From a virus, in the IMG/VR virus record IMGVR_UViG_3300022920_000024, positions 1-30,131 of that record: a DNA stretch of 30,131 nucleotides. One strand, 5' to 3'. The position numbers and the translations under genes are program-made. Under the pieces are notes generated by a model that saw nothing but the letters and a program-made list of their open reading frames with translations, did not search any database and was not told the DNA's origin. The first letter of the stretch is position 1, and every line of letters starts with the position of its first letter. Shown here piece after piece: positions 4,579-20,002 of the stretch.

Positions 4579-5439
4579 TTACATCCCCCATCCAGTTAAG
4601 TGATCTGAGCAACCTTCCAATTGTTTCTCTATGTCTAAATTAATATTGTGTTTTCCACAACTCCACACTCCGCCATCTTCAATATCAGAATGCTCACAAG
4701 TTCTACAATTTTTCTCTGGAGCTACTCTTGAATGACAAACTGCGTAATGATTGCAAAAATTACAGTTAAAATTATTTGACGAATATGCTCTCTCTGGAGG
4801 TTCATCACTAAGTATTATCACCTTCTCCTTTCTTTCAAGATCCTCTGCAAAAGAATAATCAATTTCAATTATTTCATCTGCATAATGGCAATCATTTTTA
4901 TTGATTGCTAAGAAATAACAATACTGAAGCCCCATCTTAAACATATATTTTTGAACTTGACCGTAATAAACAGGGTCACTTTTCTGAACACCCAAAGATA
5001 AAAATGTGTTGAATCTTTTGTCATTCATAGTCTTTAGCTCAAGAAGCATTTCAATATCAGGCATAAATGATATGCCTTTGATTCTTCCATCAGGGTGGCC
5101 TTTTGAGTGGCCAGCAAAGCCAACTATTTCCTCTTGCTCTTCACCAACCTCACCGGTCAGGGGTAGCTTTTTGCCATCAACAATTTTATAAACTTCACAG
5201 CCAATTTTTGTTAAATCATCTATTGCTATTTTTTCAAATAAATGACCCATTGCAAATATTCTTTTTGTTCTTTGAGAGAAATTCTTTTTAGTAGCAAAGT
5301 GCCATCCATACCAGATTTTTCTCCAGCACTCACCTCCAATGCCAGACATGCCAAGATAGCCACGAGTTTTTTCTTTTTTTTCATCAATGAAATTATCAAT
5401 TTCAACAACAGGACCAAATCTTTTTGGTATCTTAGCCAT
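4579..5439 (-). CDS. Cas4/RecB-like PD-(D/E)XK nuclease, probable iron-sulfur protein, 286 aa
   Basis: A DNA exonuclease-type PD-(D/E)XK protein, probably making recombination or replication intermediates beside Sak4 and DUF669. Key residues are GHPDG (114-118), the E-x-K of LELKT (134-136) and the QxxxY motif (Q161, Y165). C38, in GECWRK, plus C226-x2-C229-x5-C235 match the one-plus-three cysteine layout that holds a 4Fe-4S cluster in Cas4 and AddB. Beyond this, residues 245-277 hold another set (C245, C248, C261, C277) that the usual domain does not need, perhaps a zinc site. The ATG overlaps the upstream stop (TAATG) with AGAGGTT before it, so it is translationally coupled to the papain-like gene. 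Confidence 0.85.
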   Translation of the reverse strand: MAKIPKRFGPVVEIDNFIDEKKEKTRGYLGMSGIGGECWRKIWYGWHFATKKNFSQRTKRIFAMGHLFEKIAIDDLTKIGCEVYKIVDGKKLPLTGEVGEEQEEIVGFAGHSKGHPDGRIKGISFMPDIEMLLELKTMNDKRFNTFLSLGVQKSDPVYYGQVQKYMFKMGLQYCYFLAINKNDCHYADEIIEIDYSFAEDLERKEKVIILSDEPPERAYSSNNFNCNFCNHYAVCHSRVAPEKNCRTCEHSDIEDGGVWSCGKHNINLDIEKQLEGCSDHLTGWGM

Positions 5440-5861
5440 TACAACCTCTTTATTTTGTATGCTGATTTTAAAAATTTATTCTCGGCATGAGAGCCATCAA
5501 CTAGAAAACAGCTATGCTGGTCAACCATAAGCCCACTTATCAAAGTGAATATGTGGCCTCTGTATGACGCTATGACTGGCTCATAATTATCTTTGTTTCT
5601 ATTTGAAAAAGAAATTAGCCTTTCTCTTTTCACAAATACATCTTCAAAATAAAAACCATATTCTTTGGCCAATATTTTTAAGTTTCCAAAATTTGAACCT
5701 CCTTCCCACTTTTTATTTTTTGATTCAAATTTATTTTTGTAATCATAAAAGCATTTTTTCAAAGGAACTTCTGTTGCTTTTGATAAAGCAAAAATTCCAC
5801 AAAGACCAATGTCTGATACTATTTCATTATCAAGACAATAATCTAATAAAGCTGTATTCAT
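5439..5861 (-). CDS. Papain-fold-like Cys-His protein, 140 aa
   Basis: The N-terminal third has DIGLCGIFALSKAT, a Cys at the start of a helix (C21). Further on are WEGGSNFGNLKILAKEYG (52-69) and YRGHIFTLISGLMVDQH with H103, D114 and Q115. This order (Cys, WxGG(S/T) segment, Gly-His, Val-Asp-Gln) matches a phage family annotated as hypothetical that I recall, and it fits a small papain-like fold. Protease, transglutaminase or deamidase activity is possible; none is shown. SD AGGA precedes the ATG. The stop overlaps the start of the Cas4-like nuclease. A second, different Cys-His protein lies at 8675-9121. Confidence 0.6.
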   Translation of the reverse strand: MNTALLDYCLDNEIVSDIGLCGIFALSKATEVPLKKCFYDYKNKFESKNKKWEGGSNFGNLKILAKEYGFYFEDVFVKRERLISFSNRNKDNYEPVIASYRGHIFTLISGLMVDQHSCFLVDGSHAENKFLKSAYKIKRL

Positions 5862-6012: not shown

Positions 6013-6483
6013 TTAATCAAAGCTAACTTTCTTTTGTTTTTTTGGCTCAGATGCAAAACTAGAAGCAGATGGCTTTGCTAATCCTTCAACTTCAGAGTAA
6101 TTCTTGCATTCATTGCCAGCAGGATAATTAGCAGTTGCTGGCTTGATAACAACTTTTACATTGAGTTCTTTGCCGTGCAGCTCTTCAGAATCCTCGACGG
6201 TTATCTTGCCAGCAGCTCTACAAATCGCAGCAAATTCTTTCTCTGCTATCTCAACTGCTTGCTTGTTTGGATGGATTAAATTCATGTTAGTGAAAAGAAG
6301 CCTCCCTTTGTATTCACCTGAGGCGACCTCAAAGACCATTTTCAAAAAAGATCCTGTTTTTTGTGAGTTCTCAACAAGATCAGAGTCTTTGATCTTACAG
6401 TGATATACATCAGCAGGAATTGGCGTGTAATCATTCATTTCATCATGTTCATCAGCTCTAAACTGACTTGGTAGCTTAGCCAT
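6013..6483 (-). CDS. DUF669 family protein, probable ssDNA-binding partner, 156 aa
   Basis: The N-terminal start MAKLPSQFRADEHDEMNDY, the EYKGRLLFTNMNLIHPNKQAVEIA segment in the middle (in two parts: residues about 57-65 and 66-81) and FAAICRAAGKI are typical of DUF669. In phages this family is usually encoded next to the Sak4-type recombinase and is thought to act as a single-stranded DNA-binding protein. The tail (134-156) is Ser/Lys-rich and ends KKVSFD; an acidic-hydrophobic end like this could be a partner-binding tip as in SSB. SD GGAGA precedes the ATG. A 32-bp mirror repeat lies directly upstream. Confidence 0.85.
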   Translation of the reverse strand: MAKLPSQFRADEHDEMNDYTPIPADVYHCKIKDSDLVENSQKTGSFLKMVFEVASGEYKGRLLFTNMNLIHPNKQAVEIAEKEFAAICRAAGKITVEDSEELHGKELNVKVVIKPATANYPAGNECKNYSEVEGLAKPSASSFASEPKKQKKVSFD

Positions 6484-8649: not shown

Positions 8650-8677
8650 ATTATACTATACATAGATGTCATGTCTA
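8650..8677 (-). promoter_or_regulatory. Leftward sigma-70-like promoter
   Basis: On the minus strand TAGACA (8677-8672), a 16-base spacer and TATAAT (8655-8650). This is the best leftward promoter match in the window. It overlaps the stop of the papain-like gene and should drive the 96-aa gene, the 243-aa gene, Sak4 and DUF669. Confidence 0.7.
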
Positions 8678-9121
8678 TAGCTGAAAATCCAAGCTGTCAA
8701 AAAAATCAGCAGAATTATCTGAATTTGAATCACAATCAAAAACCAAAAAAGAAACAACTACATCAAGCCTCAAAAGATCGTCTATTGTTTTTATTTTGAA
8801 CATCCTTGATGGATCAAGAACTTCAAAAAAACCACTTTCATTCTTAACAACTACAGAATGATAGTAGCCATAATAATTTATTACGACAATACCACAATAA
8901 TCTTTTTTTACATCAAGAGAAAAAAAGCTATGGTTTATTTCCTCAGATCTTATTTTATTTTTTGTTAAAATTGATACAATATTTGAAACACTTATTGGAA
9001 CAGGAAAGCTATCTTTTCTGAGAGCACTTTGTTCTATTCCTGTTATCATTTCAATGCAAGCATAGCCACAATAATAATCTTCAATTTGGTCAACAACTTT
9101 AATGTCCTTGATGTCTTTCAT
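8675..9121 (-). CDS. C39/papain-like Cys-His-Asp protein, 148 aa
   Basis: The pattern is that of a C39-like peptidase core: VVDQIEDYYCGYACIEMITG with Q12 and C18 (oxyanion and nucleophile positions), YYGYYHSVVVK with H88, and GFFEVLDPS with D103. There is no transporter domain or signal peptide, so it would act in the cytoplasm. The C-terminus is acidic. Known relatives cut leader peptides or other proteins; a phage target cannot be named. The frame opens at TTG 9142, but ATG 9121 overlaps the stop of the small gene upstream (ATGA), and GGAGGT lies 14 bases before it. It is the last of three coupled genes. Confidence 0.65.
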   Translation of the reverse strand: MKDIKDIKVVDQIEDYYCGYACIEMITGIEQSALRKDSFPVPISVSNIVSILTKNKIRSEEINHSFFSLDVKKDYCGIVVINYYGYYHSVVVKNESGFFEVLDPSRMFKIKTIDDLLRLDVVVSFLVFDCDSNSDNSADFFDSLDFQL

Positions 9122-9340
9122 TTTATTTTTGCATACCTCCAAGAACCTACGAAGTTTTCCACAATTGTTGGCGAGTTGCTATGCAATTTTTTATCTGCCT
9201 TTATAAATTCTTGTCCATCCCAATACATATTTATTTCTGCATTAGTCTCTGCTATCACCCCAATTAAAAGCGCATTGATTCTTGGCTTGTCACCACGTCC
9301 GTATATGTCAATTAGGTTAATGCCTTTTGCTATTTGGCAT
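9118..9340 (-). CDS. Small gene interrupted by an apparent +1 frameshift, 73 aa
   Basis: ATG 9340 overlaps the stop of the ParB-like gene (TAATG), and TGA 9118-9120 overlaps the next ATG (ATGA). Read straight from the ATG, translation stops after seven codons (MPNSKRH). Moving one base forward at the A-run 9328-9325 (codons AAA AGG) gives MPNSKGINLIDIYGRGDKPR and an open frame to the ATGA overlap, ending WRYAKIK. The length, 222 bases plus one, fits exactly one extra base. It is either a programmed +1 shift on AAA with a rare AGG codon, a natural lesion, or a sequencing error in the A-run. The product is unrecognised. Confidence 0.6.
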
Positions 9341-9717
9341 TATTCATCTACCTTGCATGCAGGAGGGTTTGTATCAAATCTCACTGCTTTTATTGTTGTT
9401 TTGTTTTCAAACATGGCTTTCATTATTCTGTGTCTGCCATCCATCAACTCACCATCTTCATCGAGAATAATTGGGAATGAAAGATCAGCATCAAGTATTG
9501 CTCTCATATGCTCAACAAATTGTCTTAGTGTTAATTTTTCGTATGTTGAGTAAATATTCAAATGTCGCAGCGGAACGTCCATAACTTCAAAATCTTTTGA
9601 AAGATCAATCAATCTAGCAACGCTAAAATGACACTTTCCAAGATTGCACATCTGACCCGAATATTCTGGCCACTTATCAATATAAACGGGCTTATTTTGC
9701 TTTTTACTTCTTGGCAT
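9340..9717 (-). CDS. ParB-like nuclease-fold protein, 125 aa
   Basis: The segment from PLRHLNI (residue 49) through FPIILDEDGELMDGRHRIMKA (in the parts 81-90 and 91-101) is the ParB N-terminal fold, with GRHR at 94-97, the nucleotide-binding and catalytic loop of this superfamily (ParB, sulfiredoxin, phage nucleases). There is no HTH or dimer domain, so this is a stand-alone ParB domain and not a partition protein. It could be a nuclease or a CTP/ATP-using regulator. The N-terminus is basic. It is translationally coupled to the small frame-disrupted gene below. Confidence 0.75.
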   Translation of the reverse strand: MPRSKKQNKPVYIDKWPEYSGQMCNLGKCHFSVARLIDLSKDFEVMDVPLRHLNIYSTYEKLTLRQFVEHMRAILDADLSFPIILDEDGELMDGRHRIMKAMFENKTTIKAVRFDTNPPACKVDE

Positions 9718-10296: not shown

Positions 10297-12663
10297 CTAT
10301 TTGACCAGTCCTATGCATATTTTTGTCGATGACCCAATCTTTAAATGTGCTTCTTTTAATGTATTGCAAGAAACAAAAGTTTTGATTATTTGCTCAGCTC
10401 TAACAGTAGCATTTCTCTTATCACCGTCAGCAGTGAGTTTTCTTATCAATTTAGTATTGCTTTGCAATCTACGGATGACAACAGATTTTGGCACCATACT
10501 ATAGGTGCTTATTGCCTTTTTGTCATAAGCACTTTGGACTTTATACTTGCCAGCTATGCAATCCTTTATTATGTTCAATATTGATTCAGCAAGAGGATCA
10601 AATTCACTATTTATAAAGTGATCAATTGCATAAATTTTAGTATCAACCCAATATTCCAAAAGAGGCAATAGACAAGCCACATCAATCTCAGGCCTTGGAT
10701 CATCTGAATTTGTTATATCAAATATCTGGCAAATTCCAAGAACAGCAGTGTATAGTTGTTCAGCACTATTCCCAATCCTGCTTAATACTTTTTGGTATGC
10801 TTCTTCTTTTGCCATCTTTGGGCCAACATATTCTTTTGCCCAAGCATTCAGCAACTCTCTGCTTTTATTGGTTGGTTTTAATATCTTTTTTCCGCTGGAT
10901 AAATTTGACATATTAAAATGGGGGCTTGAATAAAAATCAAAAAAATCATCATCTATTTCTGATTCAACACCACCTCTTTCACTAAACATATCCATGCTAT
11001 CTATATCGAATTTTAGCGTTGGTACTATTGAAAGTAAAGAGCGTCCGAACAATCCTGAATCTACCATTGATTCATCTATATATTTTTCAATCGTTTCAGG
11101 CTGTGCATAGAAAAGCACTTGGCAATTTGGGTTTGCAATTGTTTTAACTTTCCCTGCTGCTTTTATTTTTCCTGTTATCTCGTGGCCGTCAACAACTTCA
11201 ATTAATTTATCTGAGAGCGCTGCCACTGCTGATACTGAGCCAGAATTTTTTATCTGTTGAAATATCCGTGTTGCTTCTGTGTTTATCCAAAATAATTCCT
11301 CACCCTCACTAAAGCTCTGGATGAATGTTGAATCAGCAGTGATGTTTGATTCTGTGTTTAATATTCCAGAGAATATGCTATTAACAACACCTCTATTTTT
11401 GAAAATAATATCCAAGTCACGGATTACATTCTTTGAATTAACATCCTTATTTCCTGTTGATGGGGTAAGGTTTAAAAAGAAAAAGTTTGGTCTTCTGTTG
11501 TAAACAGTTACAAAATTTGATCTCAAGAGATATGCATTTGTTGAAAGAATTGTTGGAACCAACAAAGCCTCTTCAACTTGTCTTGGTATTTTCTTGAAAT
11601 TTTCATAGATCATAGGCCATGGCGCTGGCCAACTTTCCAATAAATTTTCTGGAAATTGAGGTGTGTCATCTTCTTTCTTTTCCTCTATGTCAGAATCAGA
11701 AATCAACTCTGATTTTGCATAATCCATCTCCCACTTTATCTTGTCTATTGCATCATCAATATAAGCATAAACATTCTCAGCATTAAATTCTCTACTTTTT
11801 ACCTGTGATGCTTTGGACGCTATGATCGCAAAAACCGCCTCCCTATCAGCCTTCAACAGATTTACATAGTGAAAAGCCAGTGGCATAAAATATCTTCTAT
11901 AGACTTTGCCGCTCAAAACTTCTTCAGGGATATTTGGATCAGTAAGATCATACTGATCACCTATCTGGTAGCCGCTGTAATGCTTAACTTCCTCACTAGA
12001 TAGCTTGGGTATTTTGAACCTTCTTGTCTCGCCCTGTATAAAGCCCCAGCGCCTAGATATAGGGTCAACTCCCCCTTCTATTACTGGTGGCGCTGTATAT
12101 ATAGGCTGAGAGCAGGTATAGACTGATCCATCGGCCATTATTTCTGGCGACTGGCTCCATGCCTTTCTGACATCAAGAGGTTGTAATTTTGAGCACTCAA
12201 AGTACAATCTTATCCGTGCTTCTGGGGTATTTAATTTCTGGCCGCTGGTTATTTGGTAGGTAACATCGCAGTTTATTTCTTTCTCAGCAAGCCAATTTTT
12301 TATTCCTTTCTCTGGAGACAGAGCATCATATCCATCTATGATGTGGTCATCTATATCCAATACAATCTCAGTCCCAAGGCGATCTTTTATTGTTGGATCA
12401 CCTTTCTTTTTTCTTCTTGGGGCTGGTGTATTTGTCTCAGCCATGTCTCGACCAAGGGATGTTGGTGCGCCAAGAACCAAGAATGATGAAGATAGTTTTG
12501 ATATTTTTTCTAAGATTTCATGAAAACTATCATACTCAACTATTTCAAATATGAACTTGAATCCTGAATCAAAACTTTTTATTTTGTTTAAATCTTTATC
12601 AAGTATTTTTGTTGGTTTGTTTTTATCTTGATCTTGAGGTGATAATAAAAGCAATTCTTTCAT
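10297..12663 (-). CDS. Primase-helicase (AEP-like plus DUF3987-like), 788 aa
   Basis: The likely replication initiator and helicase. Residues 1-160 hold an acidic strand VLDIDD (101-106, D103 and D105) and a basic strand ARIRLYFE (149-156), matching an archaeo-eukaryotic primase-type core. The part from about 345 on resembles DUF3987 and prophage helicases. The P-loop reads TPSTGNKD (400-407), with Asp where Ser or Thr is usual, as in the GKE/GKD variants of this group, and ELFWINTEA (456-464) sits as Walker B or sensor. The C-terminal 150 residues are helical. This is the largest leftward gene. Upstream are a promoter-like box (12770-12775) and two leader hairpins. The exact primase family should be confirmed by profile search. 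Confidence 0.75.
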   Translation of the reverse strand: MKELLLLSPQDQDKNKPTKILDKDLNKIKSFDSGFKFIFEIVEYDSFHEILEKISKLSSSFLVLGAPTSLGRDMAETNTPAPRRKKKGDPTIKDRLGTEIVLDIDDHIIDGYDALSPEKGIKNWLAEKEINCDVTYQITSGQKLNTPEARIRLYFECSKLQPLDVRKAWSQSPEIMADGSVYTCSQPIYTAPPVIEGGVDPISRRWGFIQGETRRFKIPKLSSEEVKHYSGYQIGDQYDLTDPNIPEEVLSGKVYRRYFMPLAFHYVNLLKADREAVFAIIASKASQVKSREFNAENVYAYIDDAIDKIKWEMDYAKSELISDSDIEEKKEDDTPQFPENLLESWPAPWPMIYENFKKIPRQVEEALLVPTILSTNAYLLRSNFVTVYNRRPNFFFLNLTPSTGNKDVNSKNVIRDLDIIFKNRGVVNSIFSGILNTESNITADSTFIQSFSEGEELFWINTEATRIFQQIKNSGSVSAVAALSDKLIEVVDGHEITGKIKAAGKVKTIANPNCQVLFYAQPETIEKYIDESMVDSGLFGRSLLSIVPTLKFDIDSMDMFSERGGVESEIDDDFFDFYSSPHFNMSNLSSGKKILKPTNKSRELLNAWAKEYVGPKMAKEEAYQKVLSRIGNSAEQLYTAVLGICQIFDITNSDDPRPEIDVACLLPLLEYWVDTKIYAIDHFINSEFDPLAESILNIIKDCIAGKYKVQSAYDKKAISTYSMVPKSVVIRRLQSNTKLIRKLTADGDKRNATVRAEQIIKTFVSCNTLKEAHLKIGSSTKICIGLVK

Positions 12664-16892: not shown

Positions 16893-17429
16893 TTAAATTC
16901 CTGCTGAACAGAAATGCCTGCATCTTTTGCAACAAGAACATGCAGATTCTTCTGGTGTTTTGTGATTCAATTCAATATCCCGCTGGCACGGCTCAAGATC
17001 ATTTGTCTCATCGCATTGACAAAAATCAGAAAATGAATTTATGACAACATACTTAATGCCATATGGCTTGTAATGAACAGTAGTTATGTTAATCTCATAA
17101 ACAGCGTGCAAAATTTTTAAAATAACAAGATTTAAAAAATCTTCATCACTATTTTCATGCCTACTTGGTATTGGGCCAAGGCCACCAGCATGGAAAATCA
17201 TCTGCAGAGACTTCAGGCCAAATTCAACAGCAGAACTGTTCCCGCCAGCAACAACAATATTATGAAACAAGAACTCACCTTTTCTACAGCCATTTAATAT
17301 TTCCATCTTAAAACAAAGATGCGCCATAGATGATGATTTGGGCTTGCGCAATTCCACTTCAACAATTTTAATTTTGTAATCACCATCTTCAAATGGTATT
17401 TGTTTGTCATAGCCAACAGAAGCACTCAT
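16893..17429 (-). CDS. Second DUF669-like protein with Cys-rich tail, 178 aa
   Basis: Residues 12-85 follow the DUF669 layout: IPFEDGDYKIKIVEVEL, then KMEILNGCRKGEFLFHNIVV, then SSAVEFGLKSLQMIFHAGGL. It aligns by eye with the gene at 6013-6483 (same growth of K-G-x-x-L/F-L-F, AVE and a late AAG/HAGG). A single-stranded DNA-binding role is therefore likely. After residue 136 the tail has eight cysteines (C137, C139, C148, C164, C166, C167, C170, C174) and could bind zinc; the first protein has none. ATG 17429 has AAAGGTGA. It is about 10 kb from Sak4, so it may serve another process. Confidence 0.65.
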   Translation of the reverse strand: MSASVGYDKQIPFEDGDYKIKIVEVELRKPKSSSMAHLCFKMEILNGCRKGEFLFHNIVVAGGNSSAVEFGLKSLQMIFHAGGLGPIPSRHENSDEDFLNLVILKILHAVYEINITTVHYKPYGIKYVVINSFSDFCQCDETNDLEPCQRDIELNHKTPEESACSCCKRCRHFCSAGI

Positions 17430-17853: not shown

Positions 17854-18384
17854 CTATCCCCAGTTTAGGCCATTGGCAGTAAAGCTGAATGATTTATCAC
17901 CAGCTATTATTATGTGGTCTAGCAAACGTATGTCAAATAAATTTAATGACTGTTTTATTTGATCAGTTATATTTTTGTCAGCATCGCTTGGTCTCTCTTC
18001 ACCACTAGGGTGATTGTGAGAGATAACAATCGCACCTGCATTCAACAATAATGCTTTTTTGGCTATCTCTCTTGGCCATACTGATGCTGCATTTATTGTA
18101 CCAGCGAACATTTCATCATATTCAATCAGATTATGCATTGTATCCAAAAACATAACAGCAAAAACTTCGCGCTCTTTTTGTTGTAATTTCAATCGCAAAA
18201 AATTAATTGAATCACTGGAGTCATTCACCTGAAAAGGTGCGCTTCTAAGTTGTAGATCCAATATTGAAATCGCAGCATCTATCACTTCTTTGTGATTGTC
18301 ATTTATCACCAGTGGGTTTTTGCCATTCTTATCTGTGTAGTACACGCCTTCATTATCAGAAAGCAATTTTTTCTTATCAATCAT
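17854..18384 (-). CDS. radC: RadC/JAB-domain (JAMM metalloprotease-fold) protein, 176 aa
   Basis: The RadC family domain covers residues about 40-176. The metal motif is HNHPSGEERPSDAD (123-136): H123, H125 and D136 bind zinc with S133, the H-x-H-x7-S-x2-D form. MFLDTMHNLI (78-87) and LDHIIIAGDKSFSF are further family marks. RadC proteins were once linked to repair; their biochemical role is unsettled. Some JAB proteins remove ubiquitin-like tags, so an anti-defence role is conceivable. It lacks the N-terminal helix-hairpin-helix of host RadC. SD AGGTGAT. It follows a promoter with operator-like symmetry (18432-18448). Confidence 0.85.
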   Translation of the reverse strand: MIDKKKLLSDNEGVYYTDKNGKNPLVINDNHKEVIDAAISILDLQLRSAPFQVNDSSDSINFLRLKLQQKEREVFAVMFLDTMHNLIEYDEMFAGTINAASVWPREIAKKALLLNAGAIVISHNHPSGEERPSDADKNITDQIKQSLNLFDIRLLDHIIIAGDKSFSFTANGLNWG

Positions 18385-18484: not shown

Positions 18485-18799
18485 TTAAACTATTGAAACA
18501 GGACAGTCAAAATGCATAATTGCGCCATCAACAGATATTTTATTAATGCAGATCTTTTCAACTTTTACAGCAGTTATCTGAAATATTGTTTTTGTTGAAT
18601 CATCCAATTCTAATTTTATCCAAAATTTTTGTTTCTTGGGATTTTTCTTGACAAATTTATCAATATTGATCCATTCGTAAAAACCAGAATCAGAACCATA
18701 AACGCCACTCAGATCTGTTGTTCTTTTTACAGTATCAATAAGAGCCTTTAGAAAGCCAGAATCTACGCTGGCCAAGTCTTGTTCATTAATGTTGCTCAT
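18485..18799 (-). CDS. Hypothetical early-type protein, 104 aa
   Basis: First gene of the leftward arm. It starts MSNINEQDLASVDSG with a strong AGAGGA. The C-terminal part is strand-rich (FWIKLELDDSTKTIFQITAV, then AIMHFDCPVSIV), suggesting a small beta domain. No family. It has its own -10 box upstream and another promoter just downstream, so it may be made early and separately from the RadC unit. Confidence 0.7.
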   Translation of the reverse strand: MSNINEQDLASVDSGFLKALIDTVKRTTDLSGVYGSDSGFYEWINIDKFVKKNPKKQKFWIKLELDDSTKTIFQITAVKVEKICINKISVDGAIMHFDCPVSIV

Positions 18800-18842
18800 A
18801 ATCTTTTCCTCTATCTGTTTTGCCTATTTAATTTATAAATTG

Positions 18843-18848
18843 ATTATA
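18843..18848 (-). promoter_or_regulatory. Leftward -10 element (GCGTATAATC)
   Basis: Perfect TATAAT in the same ten-base context as at 1459-1464. The palindrome TTCAATATTGAA lies 118 bases upstream. It should start the first leftward transcript with a leader of about 40 bases. Confidence 0.55.
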
Positions 18849-18960
18849 CGCTTGTTAATTTTGAAAGAAAGGGCACAAAACTCACTTTTGGAAAACTAAT
18901 CAAAAACGCTAAAAAGTGAAAAAACAGGGAAAATTCACTTTTCAGAGCAAAAATGCCCTA

Positions 18961-18988
18961 CCCTATTCAATATTGAATGTAAATAGGG
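18961..18988. promoter_or_regulatory. Nested palindromes, possible operator
   Basis: CCCTATT (18961-18967) and AATAGGG (18982-18988) flank TTCAATATTGAA (18966-18977), which also occurs at 1512-1523. The outer arms are not present at the other site. Confidence 0.5.
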
Positions 18989-19104
18989 CGAAAATAAACC
19001 GAATAACCACTTTTGCAGTAGGGTTATCTGAAGTAAGTGGTTACTACGCCTGCAGCCCCTATTCCCTTGTTTTAGAAAAAGGCGTGAATATTATTTCTTG
19101 AAAA

Positions 19105-19389
19105 AATAATATCGCTGCAGCCCCCGTCATTCCTAGCGATATTATTCCAGTATTATTCAATAATATCGCTGTGTCCTTAGTGCTGCAAGGGATACAGCGT
19201 TTTTTCGGCCTAGAATATTATTTTCGACCCAAACGCGAAAATACGCCGCTTAAAAATAAAAGTAAATAAAGTTCTTTACATTTGGTCGAAAATATAGTAG
19301 CCACTATTTTACTTTTTTTAATATTTTAATATTATTATTATTATATATATACTAAACCTATATACAGCAAGGCTCACAGCGATATTATT
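19105..19389. repeat. Four copies of AGCGATATTATT in alternating orientation
   Basis: Exact 12-mers lie at 19105-19116 (minus), 19135-19146 (plus), 19159-19170 (minus) and 19378-19389 (plus). Neighbouring copies 1-2 and 2-3 are perfect inverted repeats with 18- and 12-base spacers, so alternative hairpins or cruciforms are possible. The related strings CCAGTATTATT and CCGATATTATA occur next to copies 2 and 4. The AT-rich stretch lies between copies 3 and 4. Confidence 0.85.
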
Positions 19390-19530
19390 CCGATATTATA
19401 CCAGTATTATTTAAACCGACCTCCAACGGCCATCCCAAGCCCCTAGCGAGCGATAGCCCAGCCCTATATATTCCCTCAACCTTCATCTATATGTCGCTGG
19501 TGATAGCTGAAACAAACCCCTATCCCTATA

Positions 19531-19559
19531 TAGACCGCGCCGCCCTAATCGCTTATAAT
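19531..19559 (+). promoter_or_regulatory. Rightward promoter for the structural arm
   Basis: TAGACC (19531-19536), a 17-base spacer and TATAAT (19554-19559), 30 bases before the first rightward ATG. Four of six -35 bases match consensus and all six -10 bases match. Confidence 0.65.
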
Positions 19560-19588
19560 ACTTTTATCAGAATTACTAGGCATTAAAA

Positions 19589-20002
19589 ATGATTTTTGAT
19601 CAAAAAACACTTCCAACAGTTTTTGCAAAAAGCATTGCAGAAAGTGTCGATCTTGTTGAAGAGTTGGAAACTGGAATGAACCATGTTGCCTACAACAAGA
19701 AAATGCAAAGATTGGTTGCTTTTCAGCAAATGGCAGTCACTTGCTCAATTGAAGATGCAAAAATAGCATTTCATGGATATGAGCTTTCTGAGCTTCAAAA
19801 TGAAGCACTTGAGGTTATTTACAAAAGCACGAAGCCATGGATGCTTGGTCATGTTGTTGGCATTCTTCTTGAGAAAATAAACAACAAGTCAACAATGAAC
19901 AAAGATTTTGCTGAGTCAGTTTCGACAATTGTTGAGCAGTTAACAAAAGCCGATGGGAAATCAACACAGAAAGTAAAACAAATGTTGGTCAAGCTCTGCT
20001 AA
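19589..20002 (+). CDS. Hypothetical helical protein, 137 aa
   Basis: First gene of the rightward arm, with AGG at 8 bases before the ATG. Mostly helical, with KPWMLGHVVGILLEKI in the second half and a basic C-terminus (KSTQKVKQMLVKLC). No recognised domain or HTH motif that I can name. A regulatory or packaging-linked role is possible from its position next to the control region, but this is not supported by sequence. Confidence 0.7.
   Translation: MIFDQKTLPTVFAKSIAESVDLVEELETGMNHVAYNKKMQRLVAFQQMAVTCSIEDAKIAFHGYELSELQNEALEVIYKSTKPWMLGHVVGILLEKINNKSTMNKDFAESVSTIVEQLTKADGKSTQKVKQMLVKLC

Follow-up and report, generated by a model that had tools for sequence, protein, structure and literature searches.

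Iteron-type theta origins, such as those of lambda, P1 and the Rep_3 plasmids, are marked by short repeats next to an AT-rich stretch in non-coding DNA. The oriV of RSF1010 combines iterons and an AT-rich region with a pair of single-strand initiation sites, one on each strand. Primosome assembly and DnaG sites, including those of phiX174, G4, pAMbeta1 (ssiA) and pWV01 (ssoW), form a further class, in which the host primes on folded single-stranded DNA. RNA-polymerase-independent priming at the pWV01 sso and the PriA dependence of ssiA have been described (PMC4595007, PMC5703833). Origins are known for few uncultured phages.

Here, we describe a candidate replication region in a viral record of 30,131 bp that is apparently a fragment (the whole of this stretch is called the window below). 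The gap between its divergent gene arms can be read as a theta-type origin of the iteron type that carries, in addition, an initiation signal read by the host; we put the probability of this reading at roughly 70%. The case for an origin as such is fairly strong, and the mechanism of the initiation signal is what we infer. The analysis thereby provides a 740-bp candidate region and an architecture of 11-bp arrays that is common to related phages.

The locus resembles iteron-type origins in its short repeats, which lie beside an AT-rich stretch in non-coding DNA. It differs from them in its 11-bp spacing, in its short arrays of opposite orientation, in having no initiator gene alongside within the window and in an extra element. 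Iterons together with a strand-specific element are also found in RSF1010 oriV, a likeness of arrangement. With the primosome assembly and DnaG sites, the locus would share host priming on folded single-stranded DNA.

Repeats at the strand switch

A preliminary description of this DNA had reported four exact 12-mers at the strand switch, neighbouring copies of which form inverted repeats, as well as an AT-rich stretch between copies 3 and 4, three copies of CCTATATA and divergent gene arms. All of these features were recovered (Table 1). The 12-mer AGCGATATTATT occurs exactly four times, always in the gap (18800–19588) and nowhere else in the window, whereas about 0.012 exact matches are expected in 30 kb from base composition. 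Copies 1 and 2 as well as copies 2 and 3 are perfect inverted repeats with spacers of 18 and 12 nt, respectively, and copies 3 and 4 are inverted over 15 nt. The motif CCTATATA is found three times in the gap and once elsewhere, compared with 2.3 expected for the whole window, and is thus locally clustered. Three phages have similar sites close to where the right arm begins (the window, L002:84–92 and about L110:3183–3192); these sites are possibly a promoter element. A search of IMG/VR for exact pairs of the 12-mer returned none.

Closer inspection of the spacing showed that the 12-mers are the heads of arrays of degenerate units with a period of 11 bp. The best lag-11 self-match in the window is 17/20, a value reached by none of 300 dinucleotide shuffles. 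Alternating orientation of the 12-mers is not supported as the design principle, the unit being a tandem array with an 11-bp period.

Table 1. Features of the candidate origin and its flanking genes (positions in the window)
Feature	Position	Strand	Basis or remark
Candidate replication origin, gap between divergent arms	18850–19588		Repeats, gene directions, skew minimum 19617
First gene of left (replication and recombination) arm	18485–18799	−	Open reading frame
12-mer copy 1	19105–19116	−	Exact-match scan
12-mer copy 2	19135–19146	+	Exact-match scan
12-mer copy 2 and array, two 11-bp units AGCGATATTAT TCCAGTATTAT	19135–19156	+	Lag-11 self-match
Conserved origin-associated element	19158–19205	+	Weight matrix 49.6 bits, window excluded from training
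12-mer copy 3	19159–19170	−	Overlaps 5′ part of conserved element
Element hairpin	Arms 19167–19178, 19187–19199; loop 19179–19186	+	Pairing
Element core CTTAGTGCTGCAAGGGATACAGCG	19176–19199	+	Part of conserved element
AT-rich stretch, candidate unwinding region	19301–19360		88% AT, between 12-mer copies 3 and 4
Possible second element copy, degenerate, weak	19351–19387	+	Score 5.3; 9/2000 region shuffles reach it; overlaps 12-mer copy 4
CCTATATA, three copies	19357, 19463, 19525 (19357–19532)	+	Perhaps part of right-arm promoter
12-mer copy 4	19378–19389	+	Exact-match scan
12-mer copy 4 and array, three 11-bp units AGCGATATTAT TCCGATATTAT ACCAGTATTAT	19378–19410	+	Lag-11 self-match
First gene of right arm, all-helical protein, 137 aa	19589–20002	+	Beside repeats in L002, L109, L110; also present in L100

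Conservation of the arrays in related phages

The phage contig L002 is syntenic with the window over seven genes, which share 36–65% identity. Its orthologue of the 19589 gene is preceded by AGCGATATTAAAGCGGTATTAAAGCGGTATTATT (0/300 shuffles), with the three 11-bp units AGCGATATTAA AGCGGTATTAA AGCGGTATTAT. Orthologues of this gene were also identified in three more terminase-related contigs, L109, L110 and L100, with a RepB_primase-domain gene upstream in L109 and L100. L109 and L110 are more distant relatives than L002, and the sequences of their arrays differ from those of the window. In L109, TACCTAC units with an 11-bp period form two arrays of 32 nt, directly 3′ of the RepB_primase-domain gene, that are 94% complementary and 266 nt apart; 11 of the 15 TACCTAC sites in this 52-kb record fall inside 350 bp. 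Units of TTTTGTAATGC form inverted 11-bp arrays of the same style at the same place in L110, and L100 has no clear 11-bp array. The repeats are thus kept at the same genes in relatives, with the same units in L002 and with the same architecture in another sequence in L109 and L110. An array that retains its position and spacing while its sequence changes would be predicted if the sites coevolve with a binding protein specific to each phage.

Repeats in direct orientation every 11 bp are characteristic of some winged-helix regulators, for example PhoB. The repeats could be operators for a regulator acting at divergent early and late promoters, in which case the gap would be a control region and not an origin. 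The divergent arms and the position of the CCTATATA copies on the right-arm side agree with this, as do promoter-like sites on both strands, although these do not exceed the level in shuffles. We nevertheless consider operators alone quite unlikely, as they leave unexplained an element that the gap shares with plasmid and phage replication regions (see below), and the arrays of L109 follow a primase-helicase gene instead of lying between divergent genes. Operator and origin functions are compatible and do not exclude each other.

Cumulative GC skew had been proposed as a check on the origin. In the 30-kb window, the cumulative G−C minimum is at 19617. In the full L109 record, it is located at 49092, about 2.4 kb from the arrays (46278–46706), and the skew of L109 appears to reflect the direction of the genes and not the position of the repeats. 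This displacement rules out cumulative GC skew as proof of an origin, and we do not count it as independent evidence.

Genes around the candidate origin

The left arm (− strand) encodes a RadD-like helicase, a Cas4-type exonuclease, a dUTPase, a Sak4-like annealing ATPase, SSB-like proteins, a primase-helicase and a RadC-like protein. A RusA/PDDEXK-like gene, the terminase and then head genes common to L002 follow on the right arm (+ strand). The RadC-like protein (17854–18384) contains a JAB domain (PF04002, 2e-40) and is encoded near the origin. SSB-like proteins (phrog_2300) are present as two paralogues (6013–6483 and 16893–17429), the second of which is placed towards the origin within the left arm. 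Two small proteins (5439–5861 and 8675–9142) resemble, by eye, cysteine peptidases of the C39 type, and the latter has a homologue in L101.

The product of the first right-arm gene (19589–20002) is a candidate for an array-binding protein or a small terminase. Were it the latter, the 11-bp arrays might constitute a packaging (pac) site. Differing arrays are found directly before the 19589 orthologues in four phages, near the terminase, and the protein is small and helical, as this explanation would have it. However, searches of Pfam, NCBIfam, PHROGs and the PDB matched it to no known family, terminase families included, and to no solved fold, and the element that overlaps the arrays is found in plasmids too, although plasmids are not packaged. 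A pac site is thus very unlikely.

As at iteron origins, the repeats are clustered and specific, adjoin an AT-rich region and hold a conserved place in relatives. A neighbouring initiator gene is common at such origins and not required; no recognisable Rep or primase gene lies beside the repeats of the window. The primase-helicase (10297–12663), which was proposed earlier as one of several possible readers of the 12-mer, is encoded about 6.5 kb away. By hhalign, it does not detectably resemble the primases beside the origin in L109 and L100, and no relatives were found in phages or viral contigs and no match in the PDB; its single-sequence AlphaFold model was uninformative (pLDDT 33). The other proteins put forward for this role gave no informative matches either. 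Among them, the ParB-like protein (9340–9717) was set aside: it matched neither Pfam nor NCBIfam, and the 12-mer lacks the palindromic symmetry of parS sites.

A conserved element overlapping the repeats

A second motif, CTTAGTGCTGCAAGGGATACAGCGTTT, which is absent from the preliminary description and is more informative than the 12-mer, overlaps 12-mer copy 3 and is unrelated to it. In a scan with a weight matrix trained without the window, the best non-overlapping site scored 3.2 bits, compared with 49.6 bits for the element itself. When the whole region was searched with blastn, the short element alone was informative, with a single short match to intergenic DNA between divergent genes next to the DUF5906 primase-helicase gene of Enterococcus phage IME-EFm1. 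The 12-nt arm CGCTGTGTCCTT and the 13-nt arm AAGGGATACAGCG are identical in the two phages, whereas the 8-nt loops differ.

The core pattern CTTASNNNNNCAAGGGATACAGMG matches 46 viral contigs; additional conserved bases, intergenic placement and repeat enrichment stand in for a chance estimate of this count. The bases after the core are NTT in 45 of the 46 contigs and the M position is C in 44, although the pattern required neither. A wider pattern was found in 28 contigs in 257 Gb of genomes, where our own estimate, which allows for both strands, 7 gap lengths and 20 fixed bases, gives about 3. Besides Bacilli and Acinetobacter plasmids, the matches extend to a Sansalvadorimonas prophage; a few look like chance (e.g. 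L080, L088 and L095).

Reduction to less than 62% identity left 30 distinct element contexts. Most of them retain the inner CTT/AAG pairing, the outer stem is fully paired only in a minority, and GATACAGCG is fixed although the outer stem cannot pair in most. Partial pairing combined with fixed sequence suggests that the sequence matters, probably together with the fold. The same data bear on whether the hairpin is a mere intrinsic transcription terminator. In the window and in IME-EFm1, a stem of 11–12 pairs is indeed followed by T bases. A terminator scan did not report 19158–19205, however, and a fixed GATACAGCG beside an unpaired outer stem points to sequence recognition, so that a terminator is hardly a credible explanation.

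The element was absent from all 80 terminase-related loci, including the 13-kb fragment of L002, and is therefore not tied to this phage lineage. E. coli genomes contained no match, and matches in Rfam 15 were at chance level. The phiX174 primosome assembly site, the G4 origin and pAMbeta1 ssiA all had best scores below 0, compared with 46.6 for the window. This lack of a sequence match sets the element apart from those site types; it does not reject a priming function, as the known sites themselves differ in sequence class. A search for its sequence in the running text of open-access papers returned only unrelated hits and no published description of the element, and the published account of the pTE15 minimal replicon does not describe it either.

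Occurrence in replication regions of plasmids and phages

The element sites are predominantly non-coding, with 28 of 30 outside open reading frames of at least 120 aa, compared with 44% of random positions. They are also surrounded by repeats: in 620-nt windows around the element, repeats within 300 nt had a median z of 6.4, compared with 0.44 in 291 control windows (p = 1e-10). The contexts showed no shared AT-rich side. In small E. faecium plasmids, the element is located upstream of Rep_3 genes, and it also occurs in Acinetobacter RepM (Rep_3) plasmids. Rolling-circle plasmids, including those of Lactococcus, carry it with Rep_OBD proteins nearby. It further adjoins the primase gene of a Streptococcus satellite and genes for D5-type helicases. 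As would be expected of a single-strand initiation site, the element thus lies in non-coding replication regions, those of rolling-circle plasmids included.

At seven of the 30 origins, the element is accompanied within 400 nt by another copy that scores above the 99th percentile of controls. The second copy is on the opposite strand in L008, L074 and L010, which is reminiscent of the paired sites of RSF1010. A further parallel is the RepB_primase domain encoded by L109 and L100, relatives of the phage studied here. Unlike RSF1010, the window has a possible second copy that is weak and on the same strand. In the 6.3-kb E. faecium plasmids, inverted copies at L008:3012 (+) and L008:3255 (−) flank rep-proximal repeats.

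Very small plasmids recorded from Staphylococcus xylosus and Sphingobacterium share near-identical element contexts, and a sequence of the Acinetobacter plasmid type was found inside a Nakamurella assembly (L014, L015, L091). These records reflect either true wide transfer or sample contamination, and some may be cross-contaminated.

A proposed initiation mechanism

The arguments for an origin in the gap, already suggested in the preliminary description, are the repeats conserved before the same gene in L002, the inverted 11-bp arrays that L109 and L110 have at the corresponding position and, above all, an element common to plasmid and phage replication regions; alternation and GC skew do not contribute. 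In the model that we propose, a phage-encoded initiator would bind the 11-bp-spaced units, which form oppositely oriented arrays and would share one helical face, and would open the AT-rich stretch at about 19300–19360. The + strand could then expose the element at 19158–19205, where a putative host priming factor would recognise it and start a strand. Such a factor might act by primosome assembly, by direct primase binding or by RNA-polymerase priming from folded single-stranded DNA.

The element is probably read by a host factor, because the neighbouring initiators are unrelated. A single-strand initiation site is our preferred interpretation, as synthesis in rolling-circle plasmids must start from a site on single-stranded DNA, which theta origins likewise expose once opened. 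We tentatively propose, at slightly less than even odds, that the element, approximately CTNNAGCCTTASAGCCNCAAGGGATACAGCGWTT, is a hitherto undescribed cis signal through which mobile replicons with unrelated initiators all recruit a single host priming factor to single-stranded DNA. These replicons comprise Rep_3 theta plasmids of Firmicutes and Acinetobacter, rolling-circle plasmids, satellites, SPbeta, primase-encoding phages and the phage described here. Alternatively, the element could be a site for a protein that binds double-stranded DNA, for example a widespread host regulator or a recombination system, and be merely common near origins. The strong sequence conservation of the core, together with its only partial pairing, would suit such a site. 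We regard this as unlikely, since rolling-circle, theta and primase-encoding replicons carry the element alike, which a shared need for priming fits better. Should the element be a shared priming signal, it would point to a host factor on which many mobile elements depend and would locate origins in those phages and plasmids for which none is assigned.

SPbeta is a case in point. Its replication has been reported as uninvestigated (PMC8270828). The SPbeta copy of the element (L065:2997–3043) lies between yonO and yonN and coincides with an annotated, unexplained stem-loop of SPBc2, which in itself provides no functional information. Counterparts of this copy exist in phi3T, SPR and the Goe phages, and it may mark the unmapped origin of SPbeta.
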